Assembly: GCA_028284285.1 (NCBI GenBank)
Contig: JANQSA010000032.1
Coordinates: 124,001-188,000, forward strand
DNA: 64,000 nt
Source: Croceivirga sp.
Lineage (GTDB): Bacteria; Bacteroidota; Bacteroidia; Flavobacteriales; Flavobacteriaceae
Direction of reading: 5' to 3'
Below the pieces are notes generated by a model. That model was not told the DNA's origin. It did not search any database and saw only the letters and a program-made list of their open reading frames with translations. How positions within the stretch are numbered: the first letter of the stretch is position 1; every line of letters begins with the position of its first letter. Position numbers and translations under genes: made by a program. This document shows, piece after piece, positions 31,331 to 64,000 of this stretch.

Positions 31331-31357
31331 TTATTTCAGATTTCTTTGATCAGTATT

Positions 31358-36320: not shown

Positions 36321-36331
36321 AACGTATCGAT

Positions 36332-40441: not shown

Positions 40442-40452
40442 CAGTGTTCGAT

Positions 40453-41838: not shown

Positions 41839-43116
41839 TTAGTTGAATGATGGAATGGCTTTGGCATCAATACCGAAAACTTGTTCTATAATGCCTTCCA
41901 GTACTTTGGCCGATCCCTCCAAATGAAATGTCATCTGAACGTGGGTGCCGCTTTCGCCGGGGGCAAGCGCCAGGGCTGGCGAAGAAGTTTCCAGTTCATA
42001 AAAGGGACCCAAGGGCTTGGCACCTGGCTCCGGGGCACCATCATTGTAGGAGTTAACCGTATCGCCCCCATAGGGTTCGTCCTGAATTTCCCAGGTGGAA
42101 TTTACATAATCGGATACCCCATCGGGCTTATTGTATTTAACCAGGGTGAGCACTCCATTTTTGGCATCGTAGGCGCCCAATACATCCTTCGCCCGGCTGG
42201 GCAACAGGCCAATTTTGCTTCGGTATTGGCCATCACCGCTAAAGTAGACCATGTTTTGGGTGGTAATTAATCGACTCTCCGGGATTTGTCCAAAAGATTC
42301 ATAAATGTTCACCACTTTGCCTGAACCGCCATCCGCATCCGTATGATAAGGAATCATCACTGTTGTGGTTGGCGACGGGGTAAACATACCCAGTAACCAT
42401 ATGGACAGTAGGCCGGTTTCCTTTCTCCAGGCACTTCCACCCGTATTGGTCACTGTATTGTTGGTTTCATAGCCCACCGCCTGGGCTCCATCCAAATTGG
42501 AAAGCCCCAATTGCTGCATGATGTCCTTGTTTTCAAGGATTTTTATCTTGCGCTCTATATCCAAAGTAAAGGTGAATCCGGAGTAATTGGTCAACTCAGT
42601 ACTTTTGGTAAATGTGGCTTTGGTTGAAGAGGAATCTTTTACCGCATAGGGTTCCAGGTCAATTACCTTTGGGGTAAACCAATTGTCCAGCGTAAATTCC
42701 TTTCCGTTTTCGAAAAAGATGGAGTACTGTCCGCCTTCTGGCCCTAACCAAAAGCGTTCCTCACCTCCATATACGTTGATGTGTTCCGAGATTTCACCAG
42801 CTTCAAAAAAGGGCTTGTTTAACCAACCATAACTGGATCCGGTGCTACCGGCGGTACTGGTCATCACCCGGCCCTGTAGCGCTGGGGAAAGTGCTATTCT
42901 TCCCGTGTTATCATGGGTGGTCAATTCAATAATTTCAGTATGCCCGCGTAAAAAAATGACATCCTTTTCATAGTCTGTGATTTTTGAGGTTGGTTGGTCC
43001 ATCTCTTTTTCATTTTGATTCTTTGGTTTGGGTTGACAGGCCATCAGCGCCAATGCCATACCCAATAGGAAACTGCCCTTTTTTACGGTTTTAGAATGCA
43101 ACATCATCTTTGCCAT
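41839..43116 (-). CDS. Lipoprotein with galactose-mutarotase-like fold (DUF6786-type)
   Basis: I take ATG 43116 (about 425 residues); 43107, 43104 and 43152 are alternatives. All give lipobox LALMAC. The body is beta-rich: FLRGHTEIIELTTHDNTGRIALSP, GRVMTSTAGSTGSSYGWLN, and GGEERFWLGPEGGQYSIFFENG, then LLSIWLLGMFTPSP and a late LALAPGESGTHVQMTFHLEG. The pattern recalls supersandwich (mutarotase/GH-accessory) domains; I believe it corresponds to DUF6786, but no catalytic function is established to me. It sits between GH172 and a row of GH29 genes, so it may bind or epimerise a released sugar. Treat function as unknown. Confidence 0.7.
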   Translation of the reverse strand: MAKMMLHSKTVKKGSFLLGMALALMACQPKPKNQNEKEMDQPTSKITDYEKDVIFLRGHTEIIELTTHDNTGRIALSPALQGRVMTSTAGSTGSSYGWLNKPFFEAGEISEHINVYGGEERFWLGPEGGQYSIFFENGKEFTLDNWFTPKVIDLEPYAVKDSSSTKATFTKSTELTNYSGFTFTLDIERKIKILENKDIMQQLGLSNLDGAQAVGYETNNTVTNTGGSAWRKETGLLSIWLLGMFTPSPTTTVMIPYHTDADGGSGKVVNIYESFGQIPESRLITTQNMVYFSGDGQYRSKIGLLPSRAKDVLGAYDAKNGVLTLVKYNKPDGVSDYVNSTWEIQDEPYGGDTVNSYNDGAPEPGAKPLGPFYELETSSPALALAPGESGTHVQMTFHLEGSAKVLEGIIEQVFGIDAKAIPSFN

Positions 43117-43311
43117 GTAGTTTGCCCCAACAGAAAGATGAAAATACAGCATATCCCATGTTGAGCCTGTTCAAAATTTAGCCTATTCCTGTATCTTTTT
43201 TGCCTAAAATTGCTTTATCACTTGAAAATTGATTGAAAAATGAAACCATTGGGGCCTCGGCCTATATAGTATTCTTTTTTCCTTTTCCAAAACTCAGGAC
43301 ATCCCCACCAC

Positions 43312-44913: not shown

Positions 44914-44918
44914 CTTTT

Positions 44919-46601: not shown

Positions 46602-46605
46602 AGGA

Positions 46606-48309: not shown

Positions 48310-48324
48310 ATCTTTATTATGTTT

Positions 48325-49671
48325 TTAAATGTATTGTAGTTGTTTTTTTTCCCGGTTCATGGATCTAAAGGAATAAATGGCCACCAGAACCAGACAGGTC
48401 AGTGGCAAGACAAACGAAAAATTGACCTCCGGAATAAAGCCCAGCACCTTAAGGTCACTCAGGCCGGTACCACCCATATCAATAATACGGCCTTGTATAG
48501 GGGGCATTAGGGCACCCCCAACAATGGCCAAGACCAATCCTGCAGATCCCAATTTGGCCTCGTTGCCCATACCTTTAAGGGCAATACCGTAAATGGTAGG
48601 GAACATAAGGCTCATGGCAAAGGATACGCCCACCAAGCAATAGAGGCCCAACATGCCGTGGATCATGATGGCCCCTACGGTAAAACCAATTCCCAAAAAA
48701 GCAAAAACTAGCATGAGCCTGGCCGGGTTGATGTAACGAATCAAAAAAGTGCAGATCCAACGTGCCGTCAAGAACAAAATAGTAGAAGCCGCTACATAGA
48801 CCACTGCATTGAGCTGGTTGTCTGCCGAACGTGATTCATTGAGGTTGGTCACATACTGATAGATAAAGGTCCACACCATAATTTGGCAGGCCACATAAAA
48901 GAACTGTGCCAATACACCCTCGTAGTAGTTTTTGTTGGAAAACAACTTTTTAACGGTCTCCTTGAGGTTCAAGGCCTTTTCCCTGGGTCGGCTTTTCTCG
49001 ATTTTCATAAAGATAAATACAATCAAAATGGCAACCACCACAAAGCCGAGTATGATATATGGAGTGCTGATCACACCCATGTCATGCTCAATGATCTGCT
49101 GTTTTTGTTCTGGGGAAAGATTTGCGGTTGCATTGGATGAATCTGCGCCAATTTTGGTTTCCAGGCGTTCCACCACAAACAAACGGGCTACCAGTTGCCC
49201 CGCCAAGGCTCCCATAGGATTAAAGGCCTGTGAAAGGTTGAGCCGTTGGGTGGCGGTACGCGGGTCGCCCAATTCGAGTACCATGGGGTTGGCCGTGGTC
49301 TCCAAAAAGGCCAAGCCAAAGGTGAGCACGTAAAGAGAAACCAAAAAGAGATCGTAATCCACCCCTTTCGCCGAGGGGTACATCAACAGGGTGCCGACCG
49401 CAAAAAGAAAGAGTCCCAAAACAATACCCGACTTATAACTGTATTTCCTAATGTACAAGGCTGCGGGTATGGCCATAGTACCATAGCCCCCATAGAAAGC
49501 CAATTGTACATAGGAGGCCTTTACATTAGAAATGTCCAATACGTTTTTGAAGACCTCCACCATAGGGTTGGTGAGATCGTTGGGAAAGCCCCAAAGAAAA
49601 AAGAGCGAGGTTACCGCAATATACGGCAGTAGCAATTTGGTTTCCACTACTTTGGGCCTTGTACTGTTCAT
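48325..49671 (-). CDS. fucP: FucP-type sugar:proton symporter (MFS)
   Basis: 448 residues, 12 membrane spans, no signal peptide. Matches FucP closely: SLFFLWGFPNDLTNPM, QLAFYGGYGTMAIPAALYIRKYSYKSGIVLGLFLFA, and LAFLETTANPMV with Glu124, equivalent to the essential Glu135 in E. coli FucP. The other essential acid, Asp46, is Asn35 here (NDLTN), with Asp32 three residues earlier. A large loop (about 175-205) carries a DSSNATANLSPEQ insertion. It imports fucose or a stereochemically related sugar (D-arabinose, L-galactose). It is upstream of the isomerase and ribulokinase, the standard importer-catabolism order. Confidence 0.9.
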   Translation of the reverse strand: MNSTRPKVVETKLLLPYIAVTSLFFLWGFPNDLTNPMVEVFKNVLDISNVKASYVQLAFYGGYGTMAIPAALYIRKYSYKSGIVLGLFLFAVGTLLMYPSAKGVDYDLFLVSLYVLTFGLAFLETTANPMVLELGDPRTATQRLNLSQAFNPMGALAGQLVARLFVVERLETKIGADSSNATANLSPEQKQQIIEHDMGVISTPYIILGFVVVAILIVFIFMKIEKSRPREKALNLKETVKKLFSNKNYYEGVLAQFFYVACQIMVWTFIYQYVTNLNESRSADNQLNAVVYVAASTILFLTARWICTFLIRYINPARLMLVFAFLGIGFTVGAIMIHGMLGLYCLVGVSFAMSLMFPTIYGIALKGMGNEAKLGSAGLVLAIVGGALMPPIQGRIIDMGGTGLSDLKVLGFIPEVNFSFVLPLTCLVLVAIYSFRSMNREKKQLQYI

Positions 49672-49757
49672 ATAAGATATGTTCTAATTGTTGGTTTTCA
49701 TTGTTTTCTTGGGTACAATTGGGTACCACCCCAGTATGTTTTTAATGCCATAAAACA

Positions 49758-51836
49758 TTAGTCATACTCCACGGCCAAGGCTATATGCCCCGTAAATTTT
49801 GGTACGGTCAAAACGACCTTGCCCGAGTCTAAGCTGTAGTCCAGTTCTTCCATGTTGGGCACGGTGTATATTTTTTTGATGTTCTTGTTTAGGTCGAGTT
49901 TTATGGGAGTATCGTGAAGAGGCACCAAATCCTCTATAACCCGAACGCTACCCCGTTGAATGGGGGCGGCATAGAGCAAATGCAGCACATACCGTTTGTG
50001 TTCCGGTTGGTGCAACAGGTTAATGCGTCCCAAACTGGGGAGTTTCACCTTTACCATGGGTTCAATATCCAAACTATTAAAAGCTTCCATGAACAATTCA
50101 CGATGCACCCGGGCCCCATGTCCAAAATACATTTTGTCCAATTCATGGGCAATGTAAACCACGTTCCCCGTTTTCACTACCCCTGGATGTGGGGCATTCT
50201 GTAATTGGTAAGGGGTGTTGGCATGTGAGGTAAAATGTTCCCAGGTTCGGCTAAAATAAGGTTCCCGAACGGTAGCAATTACCTTCGAACCCTCAAGAGG
50301 CTTTACACGTATACCAGGCGTGTAATTGAGAAAGGGTGAGTCCACCAAATCTGTTGATTTGGGGTTTTCCACATACAGATAATCCTTGTCGTAGCGGGCT
50401 TCCCCGATATACTCAATCCCGAGGTCGAGTTGAAAGGTATTGCCCTCTGTTTCGAAAGCCCCTTTGCTCATGACCAGCAACTTTCCTCCCCTGGCTTGAA
50501 ATCCTTTGATGCGTGTGATTTCTTGTGGGGAAAGTTCAACCTGGCTGGGAATCACGATTACTTGCAATGTTGCCCAGTCACCAAGGTTATTGGCGACTAC
50601 AAAATTGACCTGGTTTTCCATCAACATCCTTGCGGTTCCCTCATCACGCGCCCTATCATTGGTAAACCACAGCCCGACTACGGCTTTATGGTCCGCCCCA
50701 ATGCCATATGCCTCAATTTTTTCAACATAATCGAAAGCATGGCCAATATTTTCATAAGTGGCCATTTCCAGTTCTCCTGATGGATGCAATTGATCACCAA
50801 AATTCGCATTGGCCCCAAAGGCCACCATGGCGGCCGCTTCGTACCAAATGGCATCTTTGTGCTTAAATCCCCCAAATTCACCCCAGGCTTTATGGAACTT
50901 ACCGCTCATCGCTACCATTGGCATACCGGTATTGGCGAAGTACTTGGCCCTATAGGGAAAAATATCGTAGCCACCCCAAGCCGTGGGCAAATCTTCCAAA
51001 TCTATTTTGGTATTGTACTCGTAAAGCTTGTTTTTAAAGGAGTGACCATAACCCAAATGTGTTGTCCAATTGTAAAAGACCGAGGCCTTTGGCAGGTGTT
51101 TGAGGATGGTTTCGCGGGTTTCTTTCAGAAACTTTTCCGTCTTTGTTACGTGGTGGGCCATGGCGGCAGCATCGTCTTGCCAGTCAATACCCTTGGCTTC
51201 CATATCTTTTTTGCTCCATTCATTGTAATTGGGACTCCGCAAGGGGACAATATCATACCATATTCCGTCCAAATCATAGTTTTTGACCAGTTCTTCGGTT
51301 TGCCTTAAGATAAGGTCCAAGTAGGGCCCTTCGGGGAATAGCACGGGCCACCCCCAGCCCATGGCATCCGTAGGGTTGGCCGCAGCTTTCTCTGCCGTAT
51401 AGCGGTCTTTGCCTTCTTTGTCCAGAAAAACCCAGTTGGGATGGTTTACGGCATCCTGTACAGACCATCCGATGGTGTAGTAGGCCTGTACGCGAACACC
51501 TATTTCATGGCAGGCTTTTATCTGCGCCTTCAACAAGTCAAAATCGAGGTTAGGATGTTGCTGGCCAACCTTGGTTGGATAATACGACCAGCCATGGTGG
51601 CCTTTGGCAAAAATGTTGATGGCATTTACATTGCCCGCTTTTAGTGCATCCTGGAATTGTTTTTTGTTGAATTTGCTTCCGATGTTTTGTAGTGCCTCGG
51701 AAGTATGGAAATCCAAGTGTATTTGTCTGCTGCCCTCTTTTGTACGGAATTCGGGCAGCTGTTGCGCTGCCATCTGCACGAAAGAAAAAACGGTTAAAAC
51801 ATATATAAGGCTGCGGGTATTGGTTTTAAAGTTCAC
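49758..51836 (-). CDS. GHL6-type (hypothetical glycosyl hydrolase 6) secreted enzyme, candidate alpha-L-fucosidase
   Basis: 692 residues; the start is GTG at 51836. Signal peptide ends VQMAAQ. The N-terminal TIM barrel has the GHL6 signature DFHTSEALQNIGSKF, INIFAKGHHGWSYYPTKVG, YYTIGWSVQ and GIWYDIVPL. Then a trimerisation-like middle domain (KAVVGLWFTND...VIVIPSQVELSPQEITRIKGF..GGKLLVMSKG), and a beta-sandwich end. The phrase KGHHGWSYYPTK parallels KHHDGFxxxxS of GH29, so the barrel is distantly of the same clan. Similar barrel/trimerisation architecture occurs in GH151 alpha-L-fucosidases; placement here fits that, but the enzyme activity is unproven. It heads the fucP-isomerase-kinase run by an 86-bp gap. 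Confidence 0.72.
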   Translation of the reverse strand: MNFKTNTRSLIYVLTVFSFVQMAAQQLPEFRTKEGSRQIHLDFHTSEALQNIGSKFNKKQFQDALKAGNVNAINIFAKGHHGWSYYPTKVGQQHPNLDFDLLKAQIKACHEIGVRVQAYYTIGWSVQDAVNHPNWVFLDKEGKDRYTAEKAAANPTDAMGWGWPVLFPEGPYLDLILRQTEELVKNYDLDGIWYDIVPLRSPNYNEWSKKDMEAKGIDWQDDAAAMAHHVTKTEKFLKETRETILKHLPKASVFYNWTTHLGYGHSFKNKLYEYNTKIDLEDLPTAWGGYDIFPYRAKYFANTGMPMVAMSGKFHKAWGEFGGFKHKDAIWYEAAAMVAFGANANFGDQLHPSGELEMATYENIGHAFDYVEKIEAYGIGADHKAVVGLWFTNDRARDEGTARMLMENQVNFVVANNLGDWATLQVIVIPSQVELSPQEITRIKGFQARGGKLLVMSKGAFETEGNTFQLDLGIEYIGEARYDKDYLYVENPKSTDLVDSPFLNYTPGIRVKPLEGSKVIATVREPYFSRTWEHFTSHANTPYQLQNAPHPGVVKTGNVVYIAHELDKMYFGHGARVHRELFMEAFNSLDIEPMVKVKLPSLGRINLLHQPEHKRYVLHLLYAAPIQRGSVRVIEDLVPLHDTPIKLDLNKNIKKIYTVPNMEELDYSLDSGKVVLTVPKFTGHIALAVEYD

Positions 51837-51849
51837 GTGTTATGTTGTA

Positions 51850-53277
51850 TTAGGGTTGTACTGGGGAAAGGGCTCCCTCTTTCTCGATTACCAAGATGGT
51901 GTCTACATCGTCCATTACCACTCCGGAAAGGTCTAGTTGTAGATGTCCATTTAGGGTAAACGGCACCTCTTGCCCCCCTCCAAAAAGCGTTACTTTGGTG
52001 ACCTTGCCTGTTACGGGAACGTCCAGCAATTTCGTTTTTGGGTAGTCCAAAATGTGAAGATAGGTTTTGCCGCCTTCCTTGCCTTGCATCATTACCCCCC
52101 AGGGTTGCTCGGCCATGGGGCCACCACGGGTATTGAACACGCTTTCTCCATATTTGCGGTTCCATTGGCCTATTTCTTTGAGGCTATTGATGACCTCAGT
52201 CTGAAATTTTCCCGTGGGCGGTGGGCCTACATTCAAAAGCAGGTTCCCGTTAATGCCCGCAGCGCGCACCAAATAGTGCACCAGTTCTTTAGTGCTCTTA
52301 AATGCTTTATCCTCGGCATTGTAGCCCCAATGTTTGTTCATGGTGTCAGCAGATTCAAGGGGAAATTGTGATACTTCCTTGGTATTGGCCGCATAGGTGT
52401 CGTGCCCTGGGAGCGAGCGTTCAAAAACTTGGTAGTCCTCTCCGAATTGGGGCACACTAAAACGGTTGTTGCCAATCATGGAGTGGGGTAGGTTTTTATG
52501 GATGATGTCATAGGTTTCCTTAAAACGCCAATCCACGCCTTTCTCAATATCCCAAACCCCATCGAACCACCAACTGGAAATGGGCCCGTATTCACCGCTG
52601 CTCAACTCCTCCACCTGAGCGTTCATATAGTCGAGATATTTATTGATGTCGCCACTTTCCGGACGGCCATTTTTCCAGCCGGTTTTTCCTCTTGGAAAGT
52701 AGTCAGGATGGTGCCAGTCCAAATGGGAGTGGTACAGTCCAAAGGCGATGCCCTGTTTTTGGCATTCTTCGGCCAGTGCCTTGATAATGTCCTTTTTATA
52801 GGGTGTGCGATCCATAATGTTCCAATCCCCATGTTTGGTGGCCCACATGGCAAAACCGTCGTGGTGCTTAGAAGTGATCACCATATATTTCATCCCAGCC
52901 TCCTTGGCCAGGGCTACCCATTCTTTGGCATCGAAATCAACAGGGTTAAATTTGGGAGCCAATTCTTCGTAGTCGGCAATTTGCCACTGGCGCTGCTCCA
53001 TTTCCCACTCGTTCTTGCCCTCAACGCTATAAATACCCCAATGGATAAACATACCAAAAGTGGCGTCACGGTACCACTCATAGGCCGCCTTTGAGGCACG
53101 TATGTTGTCCCCGTTTATCTGGGGTTCCAAGCCATAAGATTCATAGCCCTTTAGATAATAGGGGATTTCTTCTGTATCTTCCGCGTCTTTTTCAGTTTTG
53201 TTCTCTTTTTGGACGCATGAAATTCCGATAAGCACAGCCATGCACAACAGCCAATTAAGACGTTTCATCATTTTCAT
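51850..53277 (-). CDS. GH29 alpha-L-fucosidase, lipoprotein
   Basis: Start set at ATG 53277 (53271 and 53268 are close alternatives); a longer frame to 53457 overlaps the divergent AraC gene. The lipobox is IGISC. Motifs: WYRDATFGMFIHWGIYS, TSKHHDGFAMWAT, LYHSHLDWHHPDYFPRG, nucleophile segment SSWWFDGVWD, MIGNNRFSVPQFGEDYQVF, DTMNKHWGYN, GNLLLNVGPPPTG, then a C-terminal beta-sandwich ending in LVIEKEG. Close to the GH29 at 39059 in the HPDYFPRG and GNNxxxxP blocks. It is divergent from the AraC regulator at 53405, so likely under its control. Confidence 0.93.
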   Translation of the reverse strand: MKMMKRLNWLLCMAVLIGISCVQKENKTEKDAEDTEEIPYYLKGYESYGLEPQINGDNIRASKAAYEWYRDATFGMFIHWGIYSVEGKNEWEMEQRQWQIADYEELAPKFNPVDFDAKEWVALAKEAGMKYMVITSKHHDGFAMWATKHGDWNIMDRTPYKKDIIKALAEECQKQGIAFGLYHSHLDWHHPDYFPRGKTGWKNGRPESGDINKYLDYMNAQVEELSSGEYGPISSWWFDGVWDIEKGVDWRFKETYDIIHKNLPHSMIGNNRFSVPQFGEDYQVFERSLPGHDTYAANTKEVSQFPLESADTMNKHWGYNAEDKAFKSTKELVHYLVRAAGINGNLLLNVGPPPTGKFQTEVINSLKEIGQWNRKYGESVFNTRGGPMAEQPWGVMMQGKEGGKTYLHILDYPKTKLLDVPVTGKVTKVTLFGGGQEVPFTLNGHLQLDLSGVVMDDVDTILVIEKEGALSPVQP

Positions 53278-53363
53278 CAATATTACCAGTAAAAAAAGTG
53301 TTATACCGAATCCATTCCATCCGGCAAATTCCACCAAATATAGGTTTCGACAGTGAAAAGACC

Positions 53364-53402
53364 AATGTAAAAAATGATTATTTTTGTGTATAATTTTACA
53401 TT
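53364..53402. promoter_or_regulatory. AraC promoter with perfect 9-bp inverted repeat and -7 box
   Basis: AATGTAAAA (53364-53372) and TTTTACATT (53394-53402) form an exact inverted repeat with a 21-bp spacer. Inside it lies TATTTTTG (53379-53386), matching the Bacteroidota -7 consensus TAnnTTTG. The right arm ends 2 bp before the AraC ATG at 53405. A bound protein would cover the promoter, so autoregulation is likely. Confidence 0.55.
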
Positions 53403-53404
53403 TT

Positions 53405-54319
53405 ATGTCTGCACTAATTATTGATAACCTATCGGCAAGTGGCGACCCTTCAGACACTCAACAGCAATTTGAACCCTTGGACTTTAAAATTTTGTGTTGC
53501 CGATATTGGTGGTTCGAAATATGGAATGGACAACGGTTGTCCTTTCCTTTTTGGCGATTGTATTGGAACAAAAACGAAGGGGCATACATCTACTACAAGG
53601 AAAAGATGTACCTGTCGCCAAATGTCGTGTGCATCATCCCCCCACATACACCTTATTCCACGGGAATTGAGAATCAAAGGCCTGTGACAAGTTCCCCCCA
53701 TTTTTTTAAGTGTGGCAGGATTGGCTCACATCAAGAGGAGCGGGAACATTTTGAGAAAGGCCATATCCTTCATTTTTTTATTCATTTTACCTTGGGAAGG
53801 AACTATGATAAAGTGGATCCTGGCATTTACGCCATTCGAATGACCGAGGAACTCTCTTCTGGTCTGTCAAAAATTGTAGATGCGCTGGTCAAGGGCACCC
53901 AGAAGTTCAGGCAAAATGAAAGTTTAGATGTGTATAATCTTGCACTGTCCGCAGTAAACGAAATCCTCCCCAAAGCCACTTTTTCGGGAAACACCAACCA
54001 AGTGGTGGGGCGGATCATCGATTTTATGGAAAAGCACATGCACACCAAATTGACCGATAGCAGTTTGGCCTCAATGCTCTCTATGTCAACAGGTTCATTT
54101 TCAAGAATGTTTAAAAGGAGTACTGGGAAAAGTCCTAGTGTTTATTTGCGTCAAATCCGGATAGAAAAGGCAAGTAACCTCCTTTTGTATACGGACACTA
54201 ATATTGACACCATAGCTGACATTTGCGGATTTTCGGATCGTTATCATTTAACTAAGGTGTTCTCCCAAATAAAGAAAACCTCACCGGCAGCTTTTCGGAA
54301 AAGTGCGGGTTATTTTTAA
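53405..54319 (+). CDS. AraC-family transcriptional regulator
   Basis: Start at ATG 53405 (304 residues), just after the inverted repeat; the upstream in-frame ATG at 53384 lies inside the -7 box and is unlikely. Sensor domain: DFKILCCRYWWFEIWNG, FWRLYWNKNEGAY, CIIPPHTPYS. The C-terminal double HTH: KLTDSSLASMLSMSTGSFSRMFKRSTGKSPSVYLRQIR and then NIDTIADICGFSDRYHLTKVFSQ. Paralogue of the regulator at 27757 and very close to the pseudogene at 58392. It is divergent from a GH29 and converges with GH172 (38 bp between stops). Likely ligand is a fucose-containing product. Confidence 0.92.
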   Translation: MSALIIDNLSASGDPSDTQQQFEPLDFKILCCRYWWFEIWNGQRLSFPFWRLYWNKNEGAYIYYKEKMYLSPNVVCIIPPHTPYSTGIENQRPVTSSPHFFKCGRIGSHQEEREHFEKGHILHFFIHFTLGRNYDKVDPGIYAIRMTEELSSGLSKIVDALVKGTQKFRQNESLDVYNLALSAVNEILPKATFSGNTNQVVGRIIDFMEKHMHTKLTDSSLASMLSMSTGSFSRMFKRSTGKSPSVYLRQIRIEKASNLLLYTDTNIDTIADICGFSDRYHLTKVFSQIKKTSPAAFRKSAGYF

Positions 54320-54357
54320 TCCATCCGCTGCGTTTCTAGCGTTGTGGAAACAGCCCA

Positions 54358-55650
54358 TTACTTCAGCTCGCCCAATTTTTGGTACACTTTTTCCTTGATG
54401 TGTTTTGTCCTTACCTCCACCGAAGGTAGTGGGGGCAAATCCGATGAAGGCTTATCCAGATAAAAATAGGCAGTGGCCGAAAAATCGTCGCTCCTGTAAA
54501 AGTTATTTGACATATTTCCAGGAAAATCGGCATCGGTGGCCTTGGGTGGGTTCTCCATATCCAAATATCTTTTGGCGGCCTCGTAACCATCATCATGTAC
54601 ATAGGACCAAACGGCGGAGATGTCCACGCCGTTTTCTATGAGCCCCACCATGTTATTCCGGTTGGTATTCCCTATTTGCTGGATGGTCACCTTGCAATCT
54701 TCGTGAAAGTAAACGGGGTCGTAAGTGTGGAAACGGTAAAAGGTATAGAGGTCGTGTTCCTTATTCGATACCGTGCTTCCTTGGATCTGGTTGTCAAATT
54801 CGCCCTGTCCCCAACCCGTGCCAATATAATCCTCTGTGCCCGTACCGACCAAGGTGGGAAACTCCCCGTCGCCATCCAGATAAATCTTTACTTCGCCCTC
54901 ACCAAACCAAGTGCCTTGGTACTTTTTGTTACCGATTACCCCGATGTTAGTGCCCAGATATCGACCTCGTCCATTTACTTTGGGTAAGATGGTGTAGTCC
55001 ACTCCCTTGGTGGTCGTGGTGTCACGGTTCCAATAGGCATGGAAATAGAGCGTGTCGTCTTCCAATTTGCCCACTTTAACCATATCAACTTGATAATAGA
55101 ACATGATGAAATCTTCCGACTCGTTCACGACCTCGATTTTGCCCGATGTATGGAAAGGCATGGGCACGGAACAATTAAATGAGCGGCCTTCCGGCATGGA
55201 AAAAAAGACGTTTTCAAAGGGACGCATCAGCCCAAGGCCCATACCAAAAAAGTCGACAAACGGAGCTGAAACGGCTGGTTTCGTTTCACCGTCCCAGTAC
55301 ATGTTAATGCTCATCTTTTGTCTGTTCTCCTGGTTCCAGGCAAAAGAATTGGCAGCCCATATCTTGGTGATGATGCCTGGTCCTTTTTGATCAAAGATGA
55401 CCAGGGTATCCCCAGGGCCTATCATACTAAAAGCATCGCCCTTGGCTCCTTTGTTGGTCATGCCTCCCTTGCCCTTTTCTCCCTTTTTGTTCTCGGAACT
55501 GATCCATCGGGTCTGTACACCTTTCGGGGCGGCCTTGTATACCTTCTTTATATCTTCTAGGGAAAATCCCTTTTCCTTATTTTCGGATTGTTGGCAACCT
55601 GTGAAGAATACCAAGACAGAAATGGTTAAAACTGTTGCTGTATGTCTCAT
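54358..55650 (-). CDS. DUF2961 / GH172-family glycosidase, lipoprotein
   Basis: Start at ATG 55650 (430 residues) with lipobox VFFTGC; a frame extending to 55716 is non-coding. An early segment KKGEKGKGGMTNKGAKGDAF is unusually Lys/Gly-rich, a flexible linker rather than a fold. The GH172 hallmark is WFGEGEVKIYLDGDGEFPTLVGTGTEDYIGTGWG, with the two catalytic-type glutamates. SAPFVDFFGMGLGLM and PMPFHTSGK are further family motifs. Shorter than the GH172 at 43312 and similar to the one at 59144. Converges with AraC. Confidence 0.9.
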   Translation of the reverse strand: MRHTATVLTISVLVFFTGCQQSENKEKGFSLEDIKKVYKAAPKGVQTRWISSENKKGEKGKGGMTNKGAKGDAFSMIGPGDTLVIFDQKGPGIITKIWAANSFAWNQENRQKMSINMYWDGETKPAVSAPFVDFFGMGLGLMRPFENVFFSMPEGRSFNCSVPMPFHTSGKIEVVNESEDFIMFYYQVDMVKVGKLEDDTLYFHAYWNRDTTTTKGVDYTILPKVNGRGRYLGTNIGVIGNKKYQGTWFGEGEVKIYLDGDGEFPTLVGTGTEDYIGTGWGQGEFDNQIQGSTVSNKEHDLYTFYRFHTYDPVYFHEDCKVTIQQIGNTNRNNMVGLIENGVDISAVWSYVHDDGYEAAKRYLDMENPPKATDADFPGNMSNNFYRSDDFSATAYFYLDKPSSDLPPLPSVEVRTKHIKEKVYQKLGELK

Positions 55651-55908
55651 GTGGATGCCGTTGTTTTTTAAACTATGCTGCTGTTGATTTATTACATCAT
55701 TTTGAAGGGTTCCCAAAGATATTGGGGTTCATGCATTGAAACTGCTACAAAATACTTCAAGGACAATACTTTTTTTGCCATCTTGTTGGGGTTTAAGCTT
55801 CAATGCTGTTTGATATTGACCCCTTGATTGTGATTGGTTCAAATACCTGGTGTTTCTAGTTTCTGTTGAGTCAAGCTTAGGGTTCAATCCAGAAAAATCT
55901 AAACAAAT

Positions 55909-58056
55909 TCAATTTACGGACCCATTTTTTATTCTTGGCTTGCCCTTAACATCAACGGACACCACCCAACCAAAACTATCCGTTTTTTTCTCGGGCAAAT
56001 CAATGCTTAATGTGCCATCCTCCTTATTAAAATTCAGTTCTTTTTTGGAAGCACTTAAATACGCCTTGGACACTTTATTGTCAATGCCTTCAATGATGAG
56101 CTTACCATTGGTGGGGTAACTGTAAACAAAGAAATTTAAGCGTGATTGATTTCCATTGGTCAACACGGTATTTGATTTCCCTTCAAACGGCAATTCACTA
56201 AATTGAGAGGCAGTGGTACCGAAAATTTCAGAATTATATTTTTTCACCAAATCGCCAAATTCATTAAGAATATCCATTGCTACCGTCGGGACATTACCTT
56301 TGGCATCCGGACCGATATTAAGCAATAAATTACCGCCTTTGCTATTGATATCCACGAGGATTTTAAACAACTCCTCGGATGATTTCCAGCGATCATCATG
56401 CGCACTGTACCCAAAACTTTCATTCATAGTATGGCAAACTTCCCATGCTTCACTATCAAAACCCGTTGCGGGCACGTATTTTTCAGGGGTTATATAATCA
56501 CCATAGGGGTTTTCTATACCATTCCAAAAGCGATTACTGACCACAATATCGGGTTGTTCTTGGGCAATCATTTCCAGTAATCCCTTGGTATCCCATGTTT
56601 TCCCCTGCTTGCTTGTACAACTGTAATCGGACCAAAGCAAATCAATTTTACCATAGTCGGTCATCAATTGTTCTACATGGCTTTTATAATAATCAAGATA
56701 GTCCGCGGTATTATTGGTGCGTTTTGCATTGTTGAGTTCATAATGGAATGGGGAATCTGGGTGTTGCCAATCGATCAGTGAATAATATAGGCCCACTTTA
56801 ATGTCTTCCTCCCTGAATGCTTCCACATATTCCCCAAAGAGATCCCTGCCTTCCGGCGAAATACTTACCTCTACGCCATATGGATTGTTTTCCTTCCTGG
56901 CATAGGGATGTTTTGTGTTGAACAAGGTAAAACCGTCGTGGTGTTTGGACGTCAATACCGCATAGCGAGCACCAATATGCTTGGCCAATTTTGCCCACTT
57001 TTTAGGATCATAATCTTCAACGGTGAAGCCCGGTCGCAATTGTTCCGCGTAATCCTTGGTGTCAGCTTGCGACCATACCTGGATCCATTCCGCATAATGT
57101 TGCTTATAACGCTTTCCCTTATAGTAGCCACCGCCCGCGCTGTACAAACCCCAGTGAATAAACATGCCCAATTTGGCTTCTTTGAACCATTGGGTACGCG
57201 TTTCTTTGGTTTTGATGAAATGCTCCACCCCTTCATAGGGTAATTGGCGCATCAAAGTGTTATCAGAGCTGGTTTTAATAGGGGGGCTTACTTTTGGCGG
57301 TCGACTGTTCTCTGGTTCGTAAACGACCCGAATACCCACGTCATGCATATTGTACCAGGGCATATAGCTACTGCGGTCGGCAACACGGGAATAAGGTGCT
57401 TCATCACTCAAATAACCGCCACCGCGTACCGCATAAAAAGAACCATCATTTGGCCCCAAAGGATTTATTTGGGCCTCTGAAGGATATTCACCGTACCAAC
57501 TACGGCACCATTCCCAAACATTTTCACTCATATCATAAAGACCCAATTCGTTGGGCCGTTTGGTGCCAACGTGATGCAATCTTCCGCCATCGCTATTCTT
57601 ATCAACCGTTGTTGCTCCCTTGGCATAGCGGTGCCCTTCGCTTTTGAGTCCGCCTCTTGCCGCAAATTCCCATTGTGCCTCTGTGGGCAGTTGTATCTTT
57701 TTGCCCAATTTTTTGCTGAGCCATTCACAATACTTTCTGGCCCTGTGAATATTCACATGTCTAATGGGCTCATTATCATGAGGGGGATCCACATATTCAT
57801 GTGGCAATTTATCACCGGTTTCCTCACAAAACGCGCGAAACTGGCCAACGCTTATTTCCTTTTGACTGATGTAAAAGGTGCCCACAGTTACCTGGTGCGG
57901 CTTTTCATCCAAATCACCATAGGCATCGCCCATGATAAAAGTGCCTCCTTCAACTTCCACAAAAGTAGGTGTTTGCTGAGCCAAAGCCAGGATAGGCGCA
58001 AATGCTCCCAGCACAACAAATGCGACCAACAACTGCAAGATTCTTGTATTTTTCAT
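55909..58056 (-). CDS. Fusion of FGE/sulfatase-modifying-factor-like domain and GH29 alpha-L-fucosidase
   Basis: 715 residues. Signal peptide ends LALAQQ. Residues about 30-248 form an FGE-sulfatase (SUMF1/C-type-lectin-like) domain: GGTFIMGDAYGDLDEKPHQVTVGTFYI, LPTEAQWEFAARGG, DMSENVWEWC, RGGGYLSDEAPYS, MHDVGIRVVYE. At the position of the copper-binding active-site cysteines (RGGSxxCxxxxC) it has Ser217 and Tyr222, so it cannot generate formylglycine. Residues about 280-715 are GH29 with WFKEAKLGMFIHWGLYS, TSKHHDGFTLFN (His372-His373) and nucleophile segment LLWSDYSCTS (Asp477), varied from WFD. The first domain may bind sugar or protein, as many FGE-fold proteins do. Divergent from the AraC pseudogene. 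Confidence 0.92.
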   Translation of the reverse strand: MKNTRILQLLVAFVVLGAFAPILALAQQTPTFVEVEGGTFIMGDAYGDLDEKPHQVTVGTFYISQKEISVGQFRAFCEETGDKLPHEYVDPPHDNEPIRHVNIHRARKYCEWLSKKLGKKIQLPTEAQWEFAARGGLKSEGHRYAKGATTVDKNSDGGRLHHVGTKRPNELGLYDMSENVWEWCRSWYGEYPSEAQINPLGPNDGSFYAVRGGGYLSDEAPYSRVADRSSYMPWYNMHDVGIRVVYEPENSRPPKVSPPIKTSSDNTLMRQLPYEGVEHFIKTKETRTQWFKEAKLGMFIHWGLYSAGGGYYKGKRYKQHYAEWIQVWSQADTKDYAEQLRPGFTVEDYDPKKWAKLAKHIGARYAVLTSKHHDGFTLFNTKHPYARKENNPYGVEVSISPEGRDLFGEYVEAFREEDIKVGLYYSLIDWQHPDSPFHYELNNAKRTNNTADYLDYYKSHVEQLMTDYGKIDLLWSDYSCTSKQGKTWDTKGLLEMIAQEQPDIVVSNRFWNGIENPYGDYITPEKYVPATGFDSEAWEVCHTMNESFGYSAHDDRWKSSEELFKILVDINSKGGNLLLNIGPDAKGNVPTVAMDILNEFGDLVKKYNSEIFGTTASQFSELPFEGKSNTVLTNGNQSRLNFFVYSYPTNGKLIIEGIDNKVSKAYLSASKKELNFNKEDGTLSIDLPEKKTDSFGWVVSVDVKGKPRIKNGSVN

Positions 58057-58391
58057 GTGATTGTTTTTATCGTTTTTTCAATGATTTGACCCGGAACTGT
58101 GCATTCCACCCATATTTGAAAACCATACTATTGTGTTTTCCATTCTTTTGCCGATAATACATAGCTCCATTTTATCAAAATCAATAAGCTGCATGGACGG
58201 AATGGTTCAATTCCATTTACACCCCCTTAAAAATCAATGCCAACAGGCACATTGTAGCGCTTATATGATTCTACTTTAAGGGTGGATAGAGATAGGCAAA
58301 CCTATTTTACCAAATATAGGAGTGACTACTTAAAATTCAAATGTCAAAACTGGCTATATTTGTGTATTTTTTTGTATTTATAGCCACACTT
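58057..58391. promoter_or_regulatory. Gene-free region between fused GH29 and AraC pseudogene, with -7 box
   Basis: 335 bp without genes. TATATTTG at 58355-58362 matches TAnnTTTG and is followed by TGTAT, as in the working AraC promoter (ATTTTTGTGTAT). A weakened copy of the inverted-repeat left arm (ATGTCAAAA near 58341) remains. This is a decayed version of the regulatory region at 53364. Confidence 0.45.
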
Positions 58392-59107
58392 GTGAAAACT
58401 CGTATCTCAAAAATCGGTTCCCTTTCGGGTGCAAATCAAGGTTGCATACCGTTGGATTTTAATATTCTTCGTTCTCCCCTTTGGTAGTTAGAAATCCGTA
58501 ATGACCAATGACTTCCCCTTCCTTTTTGGCGTTTCTAATGGAACAACACCTTAGGAGCCTATGTCCACTGTAAAAAAAGTAACCTTATCGACGGACAGTG
58601 CCTCTCCAATTTTTCATAAAAATCCTATTCAGCTGTTTTTGAGAATAAAAGGACAAACAATACCCTGCCAAGTTTATTTCAATGCGGAAGGATACGTTCC
58701 CATGAAGCTGAAAAGAACTAGCTTGAAAGGAGTTATATCCGCTACATTGTTTATGTATTTCAAGTTGGAAAAAAGCTGCGATACCCTGAAACTTGAAATC
58801 TACGAACTGTAGATTGCGAGGTCCCTTTGGGATGAACTTGGCAACATTTTGGAAACCCAGTTGGACAGCACCTTAAAATTCAGGTAGAAGGAAAGTCCGT
58901 ATGTGTATAATATTGCGATCTCGTTTTAAAATTCTATTGTCTTCCGACCTCTTTTTCAAAAACCGCAATCCACGAATTGGGCAAATCATCAAATTTACGG
59001 GGAAGCATATCAATGCCTTGGGCGAATCAAGGGTTGTTATGCAGAATTTCGCAGAGAAATTCAGGGAACCACTAAGATTTCAACCCTTGATGGATATGCC
59101 TAGTTAG
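58392..59107 (+). pseudogene. AraC-family regulator pseudogene
   Basis: Degenerate copy of the regulator at 53405, in the same orientation and with the same neighbours. From GTG 58392 it reads VKTRISKIGSLSGANQG then PLDFNILRS, matching PLDFKILCC. A run of in-frame stops follows within LW*LEIRNDQ*LPLPFWRF*WNN, against WWFEIWNGQRLSFPFWRLYWNK. Further on, LWDELGNILETQLDSTLKFR*KESPYVYNIAIS matches LSSGLSKIVDALVKGTQKFRQNESLDVYNLALS, and RIGQIIKFTGKHINA matches VVGRIIDFMEKHMHT. The second HTH is missing. At least four stops plus indels mean no regulator is made. Short frames within it (58561-58812, 58901-59107) are pieces of this pseudogene, not genes. Confidence 0.9.
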
Positions 59108-59143
59108 CACCTATTTAACCCAAACTAAGTCCTCTTCAACCTA

Positions 59144-60286
59144 TTATTTTCCTGTAGTGGGACCGCCTACATTCAAGATGGACGGGATACGCTCCTTAAC
59201 GGGTGGCAAGGATGGAAATTTTGCATGGGGCAAAGTTTGGTACCAATAGGCCACGGTATAGTAATTATCGGAACGGTGGTTGGCATGTCCATGTTCAATG
59301 GTCATCTTAAATGAGGTATTAAAAGGTATGGGCGATGTATCGTGAAAGCGGTATACCGTCCACTCGGCCCCCTTGTTGTCCCCTCCGTTCATCGGGTTGC
59401 CATAGGATTGGTACGCAAATGTAGGCTTTGTACCCCCAAAAGGATTGATGCCACAACCCCCGTAACACCATGCACCCAGGTAATAGTCTTCGGCACCAGT
59501 ACCTTTTATCTGCGGTTCTTTGGCCCCATCAATATAGATCATTTCATCGCCTTCACCCCACCAGTCCCCTTGGTTTTGGATAATGCTGTGGGTTGCGCCG
59601 ATGTAATTTCCGGTGCCCGTTGCCTCAAGCATCACGTAGTTGCCTTTGCCGTCCTTATTCTGATGGGTGTTGATTTCGGGCACATAATTGTTTGGCCAAT
59701 CGTTGGTCCAACCATCGGTAGGGGTTTGCTGCCTGTATTGGGCATGGAAATAAAGCGTCTCTTCGGGCAGCGAGCGGTGTTTTTCCCAGTCGATATTGTA
59801 ATAAAAGGCCTTTACCGCCTGCCCCCCTTCATTGGTCACCGTAATTTTTGCCTTTTTCTTAAAGGGCATGGGAAAGTTCGCATTGAGGGCCTTTTGTGAG
59901 CCTACCGAGGTATATTTTGATTCGTACATCACATACTTGCCCAGGCCCAGACCAAAGAAATCACCAATGGGCGTCTCCACACTGGGCGATTCCTCCCCAT
60001 CCCAATACATGCGCAATACTATTTTTTTAAGATGGTAGGGTTCGTCTGAGGCAATGGTCATCCAAATGTGCTTGATAATGCCCGGGCCCTCCACTTCCCC
60101 GACCAAACGGGTCTGGCCCGGTTTTAAGGGGTTGCCCCAACTGCCATCATCATTACCCCCACTGGGGTCATAACTGGCCATACGTTGGGGGGTATAATCG
60201 TTGGGTGTCCACAGTTGGGAGGTCTGGGAACTCAGCGTATACACCAAAAAAGAAGCCATTAAAAATAGAGTCGCTTTTGTTTTCAT
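59144..60286 (-). CDS. DUF2961 / GH172-family glycosidase (secreted)
   Basis: Start at ATG 60286 (380 residues), after which comes a signal peptide ending YTLSSQ; a frame to 60304 adds six residues. The hallmark is WWGEGDEMIYIDGAKEPQIKGTGAEDYYLGAWC, in which the usual GTGTED is GTGAED. DFFGLGLGKYVMYES and NFPMPFKKKAKITVTNEG match the GH172 at 54358, so the two are recent paralogues. Converges with the AraC pseudogene, as the GH172 at 54358 converges with the intact AraC. Its role is assumed to be furanosidase-like, by family. Confidence 0.9.
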   Translation of the reverse strand: MKTKATLFLMASFLVYTLSSQTSQLWTPNDYTPQRMASYDPSGGNDDGSWGNPLKPGQTRLVGEVEGPGIIKHIWMTIASDEPYHLKKIVLRMYWDGEESPSVETPIGDFFGLGLGKYVMYESKYTSVGSQKALNANFPMPFKKKAKITVTNEGGQAVKAFYYNIDWEKHRSLPEETLYFHAQYRQQTPTDGWTNDWPNNYVPEINTHQNKDGKGNYVMLEATGTGNYIGATHSIIQNQGDWWGEGDEMIYIDGAKEPQIKGTGAEDYYLGAWCYGGCGINPFGGTKPTFAYQSYGNPMNGGDNKGAEWTVYRFHDTSPIPFNTSFKMTIEHGHANHRSDNYYTVAYWYQTLPHAKFPSLPPVKERIPSILNVGGPTTGK

Positions 60287-60378
60287 TGTCTGTTTCTGTT
60301 TCATTTGATTTTATTTTATTAGGGATCTGTTTTTATAAACTCAAAAAGGGTTTTCCAAGCAACGGACGTACCATCCCC

Positions 60379-61866
60379 TTATCTAGCATTGGTAATCTTA
60401 AAGCTCCATGCATATAAACAGGGTACTTCATCATAGGCCAATGCGGGAACTTGTACCACCAGATTGCCTTGCTCGTAGGTATAGGACAAATCGCCTTCTA
60501 GGCCCAACAAAGTGATTTTGGTTTTTTTTGAAGGCTTTACTCCCTTTATAATCAACTGTCCTTTGGGTAGCTTTGGAGAAATCGCATAAATATCGTTTTC
60601 CTTACTGGTAAAGAACAATTCTTTCACCGCTTTTCCAGGCTGTTGGTCTACGGTCTGCTTCAATATATAATCCCCTTCAACGTAGGATTGTCCGGGCTGT
60701 AGCAGTTCAAAATTTCTATCCCCTTGCGACCATTGGCAGGGCTTTTTCCATTTTCGGGTACCGTAGATGGCCTCTCCGTTAACATTGAGCCATTCTCCAA
60801 TCTGCAACAGGCGTTCTTGCATGATCACAGGTATCTTGCCAGCTGCCGTAGGACCTACATTAATGCATAGGTTGCCCCCCTGACTCACAATATCGACCAA
60901 CATTAGGACCAACATTTGGGGGGAGTTGTAGTCTTCTATGTCTTCATTTCTATTGTATCCAAAGGAAAGACCCATCCCCCTAATTTCTTCCCATGGTTTG
61001 TTGAACTTCACTTCTTCACGCAGGTATTCGGTGGTAAAATAGCCGCCGTGCTTGTGGCGTTGGTCTTTTTCCCACCTATCGTTGATGACCACATCATCCT
61101 TGACAGGCGATTCGTTGAACAACCAGGCCAACAATTCGGTGCTTTTCCAGTAGCTATCATCCTTTTCCCATTCCCCATCTGCATAGATCAAATCAGGTTC
61201 ATAGTTGGTGACTAAATGCTTAAATTGGGGATGATAATACTCCGTGACAAATTTATCCAGTCCGGCCTTATACCAGGGATGGTACCATTCGTAAAGCGAA
61301 TAATATAGACCTGCCTTTAGTCCGGCATCCTTCATGGCCTTTACATAATCCCCTACCAAGTCCCTTTTTGGCCCGGTTGCCATACTGTTCCACAAATAGC
61401 CCCGTGATTTGGTGGAATGTTCATTGGGCCATAATGCAAACCCATCGTGGTGCTTTGAGGTCAGAATTACATATTTAGCCCCAGATCTCTTAAATAACGA
61501 CGCCCATTGCGCCGGATCGTAAAGCTCGGCTTTCCACAGTTTTGCAAAATCGATATAATTGAAATCTTCACCATAGGTCTTCTTATGAAAATCAGGGATT
61601 TCTTGACCAGTGAAGTTGCCGTTGCCAAAAATGGATTGACTCGTAAACCACTCCAAGTACCATTCCTCATAAGTGCCTTTTGGTGACCAAGAAGGCACGG
61701 AATACGGCCCCCAATGAATGAAAATGCCAAATTTGGCATCTTCAAACCAGTCCGCTACGGGACGTTGATCCAAAGACTTCCAATCGGCTTCGTATTGCTG
61801 TGCGCCAACACCAAAGTTTGCTGCCATAAACAACAGCACCATTGGTAAAATTCCATAGCGTTTCAT
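60379..61866 (-). CDS. GH29 alpha-L-fucosidase (secreted)
   Basis: 495 residues with signal peptide ending FGVGAQ. It has the classical full-length GH29-A pattern: WFEDAKFGIFIHWGPYSVPSW, EEWYLEWF, TSKHHDGFALWPNEHS (His139-His140), LYYSLYEWYHP and nucleophile segment DLIYADGEWE (Asp230), where the normal WFDG becomes YADG. Then GFNRNEDIEDY and GGNLCINVGPTAAG, and a long C-terminal beta-sandwich (about 385-495). It most resembles animal-type broad alpha-L-fucosidases. It follows the beta-helix gene at 62152 by 285 bp and precedes GH172 by 92 bp. Confidence 0.94.
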   Translation of the reverse strand: MKRYGILPMVLLFMAANFGVGAQQYEADWKSLDQRPVADWFEDAKFGIFIHWGPYSVPSWSPKGTYEEWYLEWFTSQSIFGNGNFTGQEIPDFHKKTYGEDFNYIDFAKLWKAELYDPAQWASLFKRSGAKYVILTSKHHDGFALWPNEHSTKSRGYLWNSMATGPKRDLVGDYVKAMKDAGLKAGLYYSLYEWYHPWYKAGLDKFVTEYYHPQFKHLVTNYEPDLIYADGEWEKDDSYWKSTELLAWLFNESPVKDDVVINDRWEKDQRHKHGGYFTTEYLREEVKFNKPWEEIRGMGLSFGYNRNEDIEDYNSPQMLVLMLVDIVSQGGNLCINVGPTAAGKIPVIMQERLLQIGEWLNVNGEAIYGTRKWKKPCQWSQGDRNFELLQPGQSYVEGDYILKQTVDQQPGKAVKELFFTSKENDIYAISPKLPKGQLIIKGVKPSKKTKITLLGLEGDLSYTYEQGNLVVQVPALAYDEVPCLYAWSFKITNAR

Positions 61867-62151
61867 TCACATCGAAATTTTTACTTTTTAAACCATAGAG
61901 ACCGCTGCAAAAAGATTTGACCAGTTGTACGGAAATGAATTGGGCTTCCAGTTTATCCATAGCCTGTCTATTGTATCCCATGGAAATTCATCGGTGCCAT
62001 GCTCGGTCTGTGGGCATCGCACTTTTTTCCCATTTCATTTTGCAAAGGTATCTGTTGAAATAAATTCGTGTTCAGTTTTTGGGAAAGCTCTTTCAACGGC
62101 TTCCCCCCAATTCATATCCTTATATTGATTGTTCACCAAGTGGAATTTACA

Positions 62152-64000
62152 TCAGTGGGTTTTAGTCAAATTTTTACTTTTTTCAGGCCCAAATATGCGT
62201 CTGCCATATACCGGTTCCAAGTCAACTACTTTCAATCGCAAAACCCCTAGTGGGTCATCACCGGATGAATGGATTTTCAATTTCACATAACGCGCTTCAA
62301 CAGGCTCTTGTTCTGGCATGTATTGTTGGTTAATGGCCAGTGTTGAAATCTTACGCCCCTCACCAAAGGTTCTCCAGTTTTTGCCATCTTTTGATATTAA
62401 ATACTCAAAATCGTAACCGTGCTTAAAATACACCTCGCGCTTGGTCTTGGCATCGATATAACCAAAAGCGGAACTCACATAATACACATCGGAAACTTTA
62501 CCCATGTCCACAATCAATTCCCCTTCTTTTCCCGCACCTTGCCAATAGGTCTCCGTTCTACCATCAGTAGCAAAAGATGCTTTGCTATTGCCCGCACTAC
62601 CTATGGCCGTTATTTCCTTACCGACCACCGTTCCTTTTTCAGCAATATAAAAATTGCTGTTTACCGGTAGTGCCGGAGGCAATAATTTTTCAATCTCCTC
62701 ACGACTTCTTATGGTCTTAATAATGGATTTTACTCCTGCCTTTTCTTTGATCCAGGTTGGATATTCCCCGGCTTCTTTCTCAAAATAATAGGCTGCACCC
62801 CTCACCACATAGTCGTGAGAACCATTGGCCAGATAAGGTCTGTGCGAAGAACCAATGACCACATTGTCCCTGATTTCAATGCCACGTGAACCGTTATCCG
62901 GGTAAATACCATGGCTATAGTGGGCACAATTGGGCGCCTCAGGATATAGCACGCCCTCAATATAATTGGCATACCACTTGGTCCCGGGGGAAGCCCCCAG
63001 ATTATAAATGGCAGCAGTATCCCCCAACTTCTTGGTCACATTATTAATGCTATTGTGGGCTACGATCACTCCACCTGCAGACGTTGGGTGGTTATAGGCT
63101 TTGTCCGAACCATCTTTCCAAAAGGCAAAATGATCCACATCGTATCGGCCCCAGCCCCATCCAAGGGAAATACCTCCAGCAGAAGAGCCATCGATGGTAT
63201 TATTGACGATGCTGGCATCTGTTACAAAGGAACATTTAATGGCACAAACATCGAAATATTCCAGCCCTACATCTTTAATTGTATTGTTATCGATGATGAT
63301 TTCACGACTTACGTTACTGCTTATGATATGATGATCCTGAAGGTTACCCATGGTAATGGCTCCACCGGAGATGCCATCAAAAGTGTTACCAAAAACATTC
63401 ACGTTCTGGTTATTGGTGTCAAAGTTCAATGCGGTACTGCCCAGATTTTGGAAGGTATTGCCCTTTATAACCACATTATGTGAATTTTTAAAGTGCACAT
63501 TCCCGGGAATATCGATCAAACCTTCAAATCCATCTTCAATGGTTTGGTAATCGGAATCCGTTAAATAGGCACCTGATTGGATACTCACATAACCCTCAGG
63601 TTTTGAAGCTTGTTTCCAGTTGCCATATTTGAAGGTAATGCCCTCAATGTTCAGGTTGCTTACGCCATCGGCATCGATCAGTTTTTCCAAATTGGATAAG
63701 ACCACTTTGGCGTTCTTCAGGTTTTCTCCCTTTACTGGTTTGTAATACACCCTGCTTTTACGCTTATCCAAATACCACTCGCCTTCTTCATCCAAGAATT
63801 CAATGGCATTTTCCAACCAAGCCACAGCTTTGTCATTGCTGTTTTCATTGATTGCAAAAGGGCCGATCCGGGCCAGTTCCCAATAGCGTTGGTTTACGTA
63901 CGCCACGCCATCCTCTATCTTATCCAACTTACCGCGATACATTTTCCAACGCATAATGTTCACCATTTCAACATCACGAACATTGGATAGCTTCGGAAAG
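62152..64000 (-). CDS. Parallel beta-helix protein, GH141-like, with C-terminal discoidin domain (5' end cut by window)
   Basis: The frame is open past base 64000, so the start is outside; 616 residues are seen. The visible part starts with the tail of a GH141/beta-helix entry region (LSNVRDVEMVNIMRWKMYRGKLDKIEDGVAYV). Right-handed beta-helix coils fill about 70-420: SNLNIEGITFKYG, HNVVIKGNTFQNLGS, NNQNVNVFGNTFDGISGGAITMG, IIIDNNTIKDVG, DNVVIGSSHRPY. An F5/8-type discoidin domain is at the end (ATDGRTETYWQGAGKEGELIVDMGKVSDV, EARYVKLKIHS). GH141 has alpha-L-fucosidase and xylanase members, so this could be another fucosidase; another beta-helix lyase or hydrolase is possible. Confidence 0.75.
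   Translation of the reverse strand, partial: FPKLSNVRDVEMVNIMRWKMYRGKLDKIEDGVAYVNQRYWELARIGPFAINENSNDKAVAWLENAIEFLDEEGEWYLDKRKSRVYYKPVKGENLKNAKVVLSNLEKLIDADGVSNLNIEGITFKYGNWKQASKPEGYVSIQSGAYLTDSDYQTIEDGFEGLIDIPGNVHFKNSHNVVIKGNTFQNLGSTALNFDTNNQNVNVFGNTFDGISGGAITMGNLQDHHIISSNVSREIIIDNNTIKDVGLEYFDVCAIKCSFVTDASIVNNTIDGSSAGGISLGWGWGRYDVDHFAFWKDGSDKAYNHPTSAGGVIVAHNSINNVTKKLGDTAAIYNLGASPGTKWYANYIEGVLYPEAPNCAHYSHGIYPDNGSRGIEIRDNVVIGSSHRPYLANGSHDYVVRGAAYYFEKEAGEYPTWIKEKAGVKSIIKTIRSREEIEKLLPPALPVNSNFYIAEKGTVVGKEITAIGSAGNSKASFATDGRTETYWQGAGKEGELIVDMGKVSDVYYVSSAFGYIDAKTKREVYFKHGYDFEYLISKDGKNWRTFGEGRKISTLAINQQYMPEQEPVEARYVKLKIHSSGDDPLGVLRLKVVDLEPVYGRRIFGPEKSKNLTKTH

Follow-up and report, generated by a model that had tools for sequence, protein, structure and literature searches.

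The C-type lectin fold, of which the formylglycine-generating enzyme (FGE) fold is a subtype, is treated as a general ligand-binding fold in the sections of PMC6328139 drawn on here, where cysteine-less FGE-type C-type-lectin folds are described as ligand-binding scaffolds and FGE activity is judged unlikely to be easily assembled in DGR variable proteins. The DGR variable proteins TvpA and TaqVP have the FGE-type C-type-lectin fold without FGE chemistry. SUMF2 and GldK lack the FGE cysteines as well, and we know of no case in which SUMF2, GldK/PorK, TvpA or TaqVP is joined to a fucosidase. Fucosidases of family GH29 can come with accessory modules of their own (CBM32/CBM35, F5/8 type C, PA14 or Fn3-like), which the relevant sections of PMC10154630 describe as C-terminal, carbohydrate binding by them being still to be demonstrated. 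The portions of the literature available to us on fucosidases and GH29, FGE, sulfatase-modifying factors and carbohydrate binding contain no description of an FGE–GH29 fusion.

Here we describe such a fusion in a stretch of 64,000 nucleotides from Croceivirga sp., referred to below as the window. Its N-terminal part belongs to the same domain family as FGE/SUMF1 (PF03781; 1y1e, 2q17, 6s07) and differs from it in lacking the active-site cysteines, in being joined to a glycoside hydrolase, and in having Glu at position 178, which is Gly in 49 of 50 other family members aligned. The fold without FGE chemistry is a property shared with TvpA and TaqVP, and the absence of cysteines a likeness to SUMF2 and GldK/PorK. 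The combination of a catalytic domain with an accessory module resembles the GH29 enzymes of PMC10154630 (in the sections cited above), but the module is N-terminal and of FGE type in the fusion, whereas it is C-terminal in those enzymes.

Results

The fusion gene occupies positions 55909..58056 on the minus strand, as do all of its parts given below, and encodes 715 amino acids in a single open reading frame (ORF) with zero internal stops. Residues 1–26 (57979..58056) form a hydrophobic stretch ahead of QQ that, judged by eye, resembles a signal peptide, and the protein is probably exported. Residues 29–245 (57322..57972) match the Pfam FGE-sulfatase (SUMF1-like) domain PF03781 with 147.8 bits against a cut-off of 23.3, which places them within that family. 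A linker (residues 249–282; 57211..57312), free of stops in all four orthologues, separates this domain from the GH29 alpha-L-fucosidase catalytic domain (residues 285–608; 56233..57204), which matches PF01120 (Alpha_L_fucos) with 259 bits. The C-terminal beta region of the GH29 part (residues 613–712; 55921..56220) is made of beta strands in the AF2 model. No Pfam domain besides FGE-sulfatase and Alpha_L_fucos was found in the fusion at E 0.001, and a Fucosidase_C match in one orthologue (L033) was weak, at 20.4 bits, and under the cut-off. The first-pass annotation had read the gene as an FGE/SUMF1 domain in frame with GH29, and the single ORF, the two Pfam matches and the recurrence of the same fusion in three orthologues bear this out.

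Among PDB sequences, the FGE-like part matches FGEs best (E 1.2e-21), with TvpA ranking third. An AF2 model of the FGE-like domain alone, made with nine sequences, had a pLDDT of 60.5, with residues 110–139, 158–180 and 186–212 under 50; the model of the whole fusion, made with 27 sequences, had a pLDDT of 66.7, with residues 122–275 under 50, and gave no confident relative placement of the FGE-like and GH29 domains. Foldseek ranked ToxD first (E 3.7e-8), followed by FGEs, among the 50 matches listed, in which TM-scores were under 0.5 and the rmsd was 5.5–13 Å. This suffices for assigning the family, not for describing the pocket.

Neither of the two cysteines on which known FGE chemistry depends is present in any of the four fusions, and the earlier reading of the domain as devoid of these residues is thus upheld. 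The first-pass annotation had placed Ser217 and Tyr222 at the cysteine positions of RGGSxxCxxxxC, and an ungapped count gives the same residues. In an alignment of 54 rows, however, the fusions have one additional residue, Asp218, and the column of the second cysteine (Cys in 27 of the 50 other rows) falls on Ser223 instead, so that the second site may have been misplaced by one residue. The segment Ser217–Ser223 (57388..57408) replaces the C....C pair. Position 217 is Ser in two fusions and Asn in two, and Tyr222 and Ser223 are found in all four; of the two residues whose conservation was of interest, Tyr222 is therefore conserved and Ser217 is not. The fusions also share, along with Glu178, Gln128 in place of a Glu present in 48 of the 50 other rows and Ile103 in place of a Trp present in 43 of 50, and these common substitutions at near-invariant sites mark their FGE-like domains as a distinct subfamily. 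Close to where the FGE active site used to be there are several aromatic residues (Tyr222, Tyr231, Trp234 and Tyr235, with Trp234 replaced by His in L033). Both the aromatics and the changes at near-invariant sites may be tied to ligand binding.

The orthologues came from a scan of genome contigs, which yielded 52 related loci, three of them full-length orthologues with 85% (L031), 83% (L032) and 80% (L033) identity to the window fusion. They belong to metagenome-assembled genomes (MAGs) named Fulvivirga, Prolixibacteraceae and Carboxylicivirga, respectively, and each is one unbroken ORF without either cysteine. A sequencing error is very unlikely, as three orthologues have the same unbroken fusion and the same absent cysteines, and separate translation of the FGE-like domain is rejected because the ORF is unbroken in the window fusion and in all three orthologues. 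A DGR target is likewise unsupported: the end of the domain that is variable in DGR proteins is conserved among the four orthologues, with no hypervariation.

No other match spanning both domains was found in 395 genomes of the phylum at a threshold of 1e-30, nor in 299 genomes of the family or 395 of the class at 1e-90, where these sets overlap, each includes the window's genome, two to three candidates were scored per genome, and the 1e-90 threshold reaches close relatives only, so that a distant fusion would escape it (non-fused relatives in the phylum reach just 1e-83). Of 740 plasmid records with a match, none covers 80% of the fusion query in a single place. The novelty lies in the partner, that is, in an FGE-like module joined to a fucosidase, an architecture found in four genomes only.

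In a GH29 tree of 47 of the 73 collected rows, the four fusions form one clade with 100/100 support, and their sister, again with 100/100, is a Planctomycete GH29 protein (L034), 49% identical and without an FGE-like domain. The end of this Planctomycete MAG protein (L034:6787-8700), which has no FGE-like head, contains a weak CBM35-like region below the cut-off. Within the fusion clade the branches are short even though its three named hosts come from different families, which suggests that the fusion gene moved between hosts by transfer; misbinning is possible, given that these hosts are all MAGs and that the bin of Fulvivirga, at 9.1 Mb, is large. Rows of the window's family group with Wocania in this tree, which makes Flavobacteriaceae the probable family.

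By the NG86 method, dN/dS was 0.03–0.09 in the FGE-like part and 0.03–0.06 in the GH29 catalytic part (five of six pairs valued in each, the pair of the window fusion and L033 giving no dS there), compared with 0.10–0.26 in the C-terminal part (six of six pairs); dS across the three parts ranged from 0.67 to 3.4 and was partly saturated, which makes these values rough. Such low ratios point to strong purifying selection on the FGE-like part, which is accordingly neither a relic nor a decaying domain.

The catalytic half was compared with solved structures and with its relatives. The best solved match is 6gn6 (E 1.1e-75), identified as alpha-L-fucosidase iso1 of Paenibacillus thiaminolyticus in the cited portion of PMC13103868, whose 447-residue chain matches the fusion at 276–677 only, i.e. 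in the GH29 part. Asp477 (WSDYS; codon checked at 56626..56628) aligns to the aspartate of the 6gn6 FDF motif and is, by alignment, the GH29 nucleophile; together with the profile score it assigns this half to GH29. Across 27 aligned GH29 rows, Trp475, Asp477, Glu525 and Glu539 show no variation. The first-pass annotation had found the block LLWSDYS unusual, which is true of the Ser beside the nucleophile (the nearest non-fused relative has ILWPDYS), not of the rest, since Trp475 and Asp477 do not vary. An abnormal active site is not supported, Asp477 being kept and Glu525 and Glu539 being equally constant; an inactive GH29 is unsupported on the same grounds, and this part looks active from its residues. 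The acid/base would be Glu525 or Glu539, and the Thermotoga enzyme would favour Glu525. In L032, position 538 is Ser rather than Trp and Glu539 is retained. Acid/base residues of GH29A enzymes align poorly, according to the sections of PMC10154630 used here. Of ten related GH29 proteins that were scanned, seven have carbohydrate-binding-like modules at the C-terminus (Fn3_assoc and PA14 in six, an F5/8 type C domain in one), and a further GH29 gene of the window (31358–33466) likewise has PA14/Fn3 or F5/8C modules, at the end opposite to the fusion's head.

Absence of the cysteines had been presented as remarkable in itself. It is not: among 50 non-fusion FGE-like domains, a non-random set that includes five top family-search scorers (all with the pair) and proteins picked for long frames, from which four duplicate rows had been removed and in which a few rows are up to 87% alike, C....C is present in seven and the pair is absent in 43. 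The pattern used in this count requires GG ahead of the cysteines and misses one domain (L091, with GIS) that has C....C, and in three rows (L130, L131 and L108:4558) it fell on a different glycine pair, leaving their actual end motif unseen. Absence of the pair is ordinary among the FGE-like domains collected.

The same holds within the window's own genome, where Pfam finds 11 FGE-sulfatase places in ten genes, with C....C in three, none in six (the fusion, L085–L088 and L089) and one open, the match of L090 stopping short of the motif. The carriers are two FGE genes at G000:C79 and G000:C16 (L083 and L084) and a C-terminal fragment at G000:C69 (L091). Because the two other FGE genes keep both cysteines, sulfatase activation need not depend on the fusion's domain. 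The fragment L091 (G000:C69:24902-25201), in a frame of 156 codons, may represent a third FGE gene that has been split or broken, or else an incomplete copy.

Partners of the FGE-like domain were surveyed in 27 non-fusion proteins. Kinases occur in four, HZS_alpha-type domains in four, caspase-like C14 domains in three, fn3 in two, and PEGA, PDZ and a NapC/NirT cytochrome in one each, with none above the cut-off in 11. A glycoside hydrolase partner was found in 0 of the 27, and so was C....C by the pattern. A sugar ligand is therefore not a rule of the family, since none of these proteins pairs the domain with a sugar enzyme and several pair it with kinases or caspase-like domains. Four 18-kb stretches from three genomes around the closest non-fused FGE-like domains, judged solely from ORF length and first residues, contain no obvious carbohydrate genes or polysaccharide utilization locus (PUL) and give no hint of a ligand. 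A large protein with an HZS_alpha middle domain and a cysteine-less C-terminal FGE-like domain is recurrent (L105, L148, L149 and L150).

The fusion lies in what Pfam matches and sulfatase motifs indicate to be a fucose/sulfated-glycan locus (10536..63966). The glycoside hydrolase genes of the window comprise nine of GH29 including the fusion, GH95, a GH141-like gene with F5/8C, GH20, and GH43-like and GH88-like genes. They are accompanied by a heparinase II/III-like gene, three S1 sulfatases with Cys-type motifs (CSPTR, CSPYR and CAPSR), three DUF2961 genes, an MFS gene and two AraC regulators, and by fucose-metabolism genes (two fucose isomerase-like, two FGGY kinase and one aldolase-like). 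The isomerase-like and FGGY kinase genes form two sets (46606–48309 and 44919–46601; 23580–25403 and 25384–26832). The second isomerase-like protein has a full N1 match, a partial N2 match and no C-terminal Pfam domain, and for this reason may use another sugar. Neighbouring nucleotidyltransferase and GHMP kinase genes at 29176–31190 could be a split fucokinase/GDP-fucose pyrophosphorylase pair, and a short ORF at 9484–10050 with a partial PEP-utilising enzyme C domain (positions 105–290 of 293) is perhaps a gene remnant.

The contigs of the other three fusions hold orthologues of window genes (fucosidase, GH141, DUF2961 or sulfatase) with up to 89% identity. The Prolixibacteraceae and Carboxylicivirga contigs share an orthologue of GH29f (74–76%) and GH141 (up to 89%), and the former has an orthologue of Sulfatase1 (61%). 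On the Fulvivirga contig, Sulfatase1 (74%), Sulfatase3 (68%) and GH29a (80%) are represented. The Carboxylicivirga contig is 58 kb long; the 40 kb of it that were read, with annotation solely through resemblance to window proteins, gave no sulfatase match. The link between the Fulvivirga fusion and the PUL is loose, because this fusion sits close to the end of its contig, some 18 kb away from the sulfatases and on the opposite strand. On the whole, the fusion accompanies one kind of PUL. The orthologue of GH29c in the Fulvivirga MAG (L157:9845-11214) extends across two overlapping ORFs with 66% and 74% identity, by a frameshift or an assembly error.

Discussion

Cysteine-less FGE-type folds are described as ligand-binding and related GH29 enzymes carry carbohydrate-binding-like modules, which leads us to read the protein as a GH29 alpha-L-fucosidase whose N-terminal cysteine-less domain of FGE-type C-type-lectin fold serves as a non-catalytic docking module, with a probability of roughly 0.55. 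In this scenario the fucosidase would be exported, and its FGE-like head would dock, via the surface around the old FGE active site, on a fucosylated, probably sulfated, glycan or on a partner protein. Docking would keep the fucosidase attached to its substrate, the role supposed for CBM-like modules in related GH29 enzymes, while the GH29 domain, going by its family, would remove fucose. The first-pass proposal of a re-used binding module thus remains the best reading and agrees with the conservation seen in the orthologues; its sugar ligand is the part that we infer, and binding of a sulfated glycan would fit a locus that contains sulfatases.

Strong conservation is equally expected of a packing domain, and the FGE-like domain could be a ligand-free structural or oligomerisation element that lies against the GH29 barrel and gives shape to the entrance of the active site or to the assembly. 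The changes to Glu178, Gln128 and Ile103 that the fusions share at near-invariant positions would suit such a role, but the sister Planctomycete GH29 and the other GH29 proteins found do without the domain, and we consider this explanation rather unlikely. It is less likely still that the domain binds a protein partner, for instance a PUL component of the outer membrane or a sulfatase, thereby uniting fucosidase and sulfatase. Recognition of a sulfatase peptide is part of FGE's original function, three Cys-type sulfatases are encoded in the window locus, and sulfatase orthologues are also present on the Fulvivirga and Prolixibacteraceae contigs; however, the stretch read of the Carboxylicivirga contig is without a sulfatase match and the FGE active-site residues are gone from the fusion.

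A cysteine-independent chemistry, kept or gained as in EgtB, OvoA or PvdO, is improbable. Similarity to the NCBIfam models of GldK, EgtB, PvdO and SenA amounts to 55–72 bits, but these scores are all far below the cut-offs of 350–500, and the fusion qualifies by cut-off as none of EgtB, OvoA, PvdO and GldK. EgtB and OvoA rely on an additional iron-binding DinB-like domain, which Pfam does not find in the fusion, and the locus offers no hint of a redox substrate. Least probable of all is a functionless passenger of a chance fusion, which would suit the rare and patchy distribution but is contradicted, as far as saturated dS permits, by a dN/dS that, at synonymous distances between 1.05 and 3.4, stays below that of the C-terminal region of the enzyme itself, and by maintenance in four hosts, of which the three with names come from different families.

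The docking-module reading can be taken one step further. We speculate, with the odds somewhat against it, that a new family of carbohydrate-binding modules begins with the cysteine-less FGE-like domain, an FGE scaffold made into a lectin for a sulfated or fucosylated glycan of algal type, which has travelled together with a fucose PUL among distant Bacteroidota.

Conclusions

Annotations of a "formylglycine-generating enzyme" in loci of this kind may be unrelated to sulfatase maturation. If the module binds sulfated fucan, an unexpected fold would be added to the carbohydrate-binding modules, and the domain could become a reagent to detect fucose-rich polysaccharide. It would also mean that a sulfatase-maturation enzyme can be converted into an accessory of a sugar enzyme.
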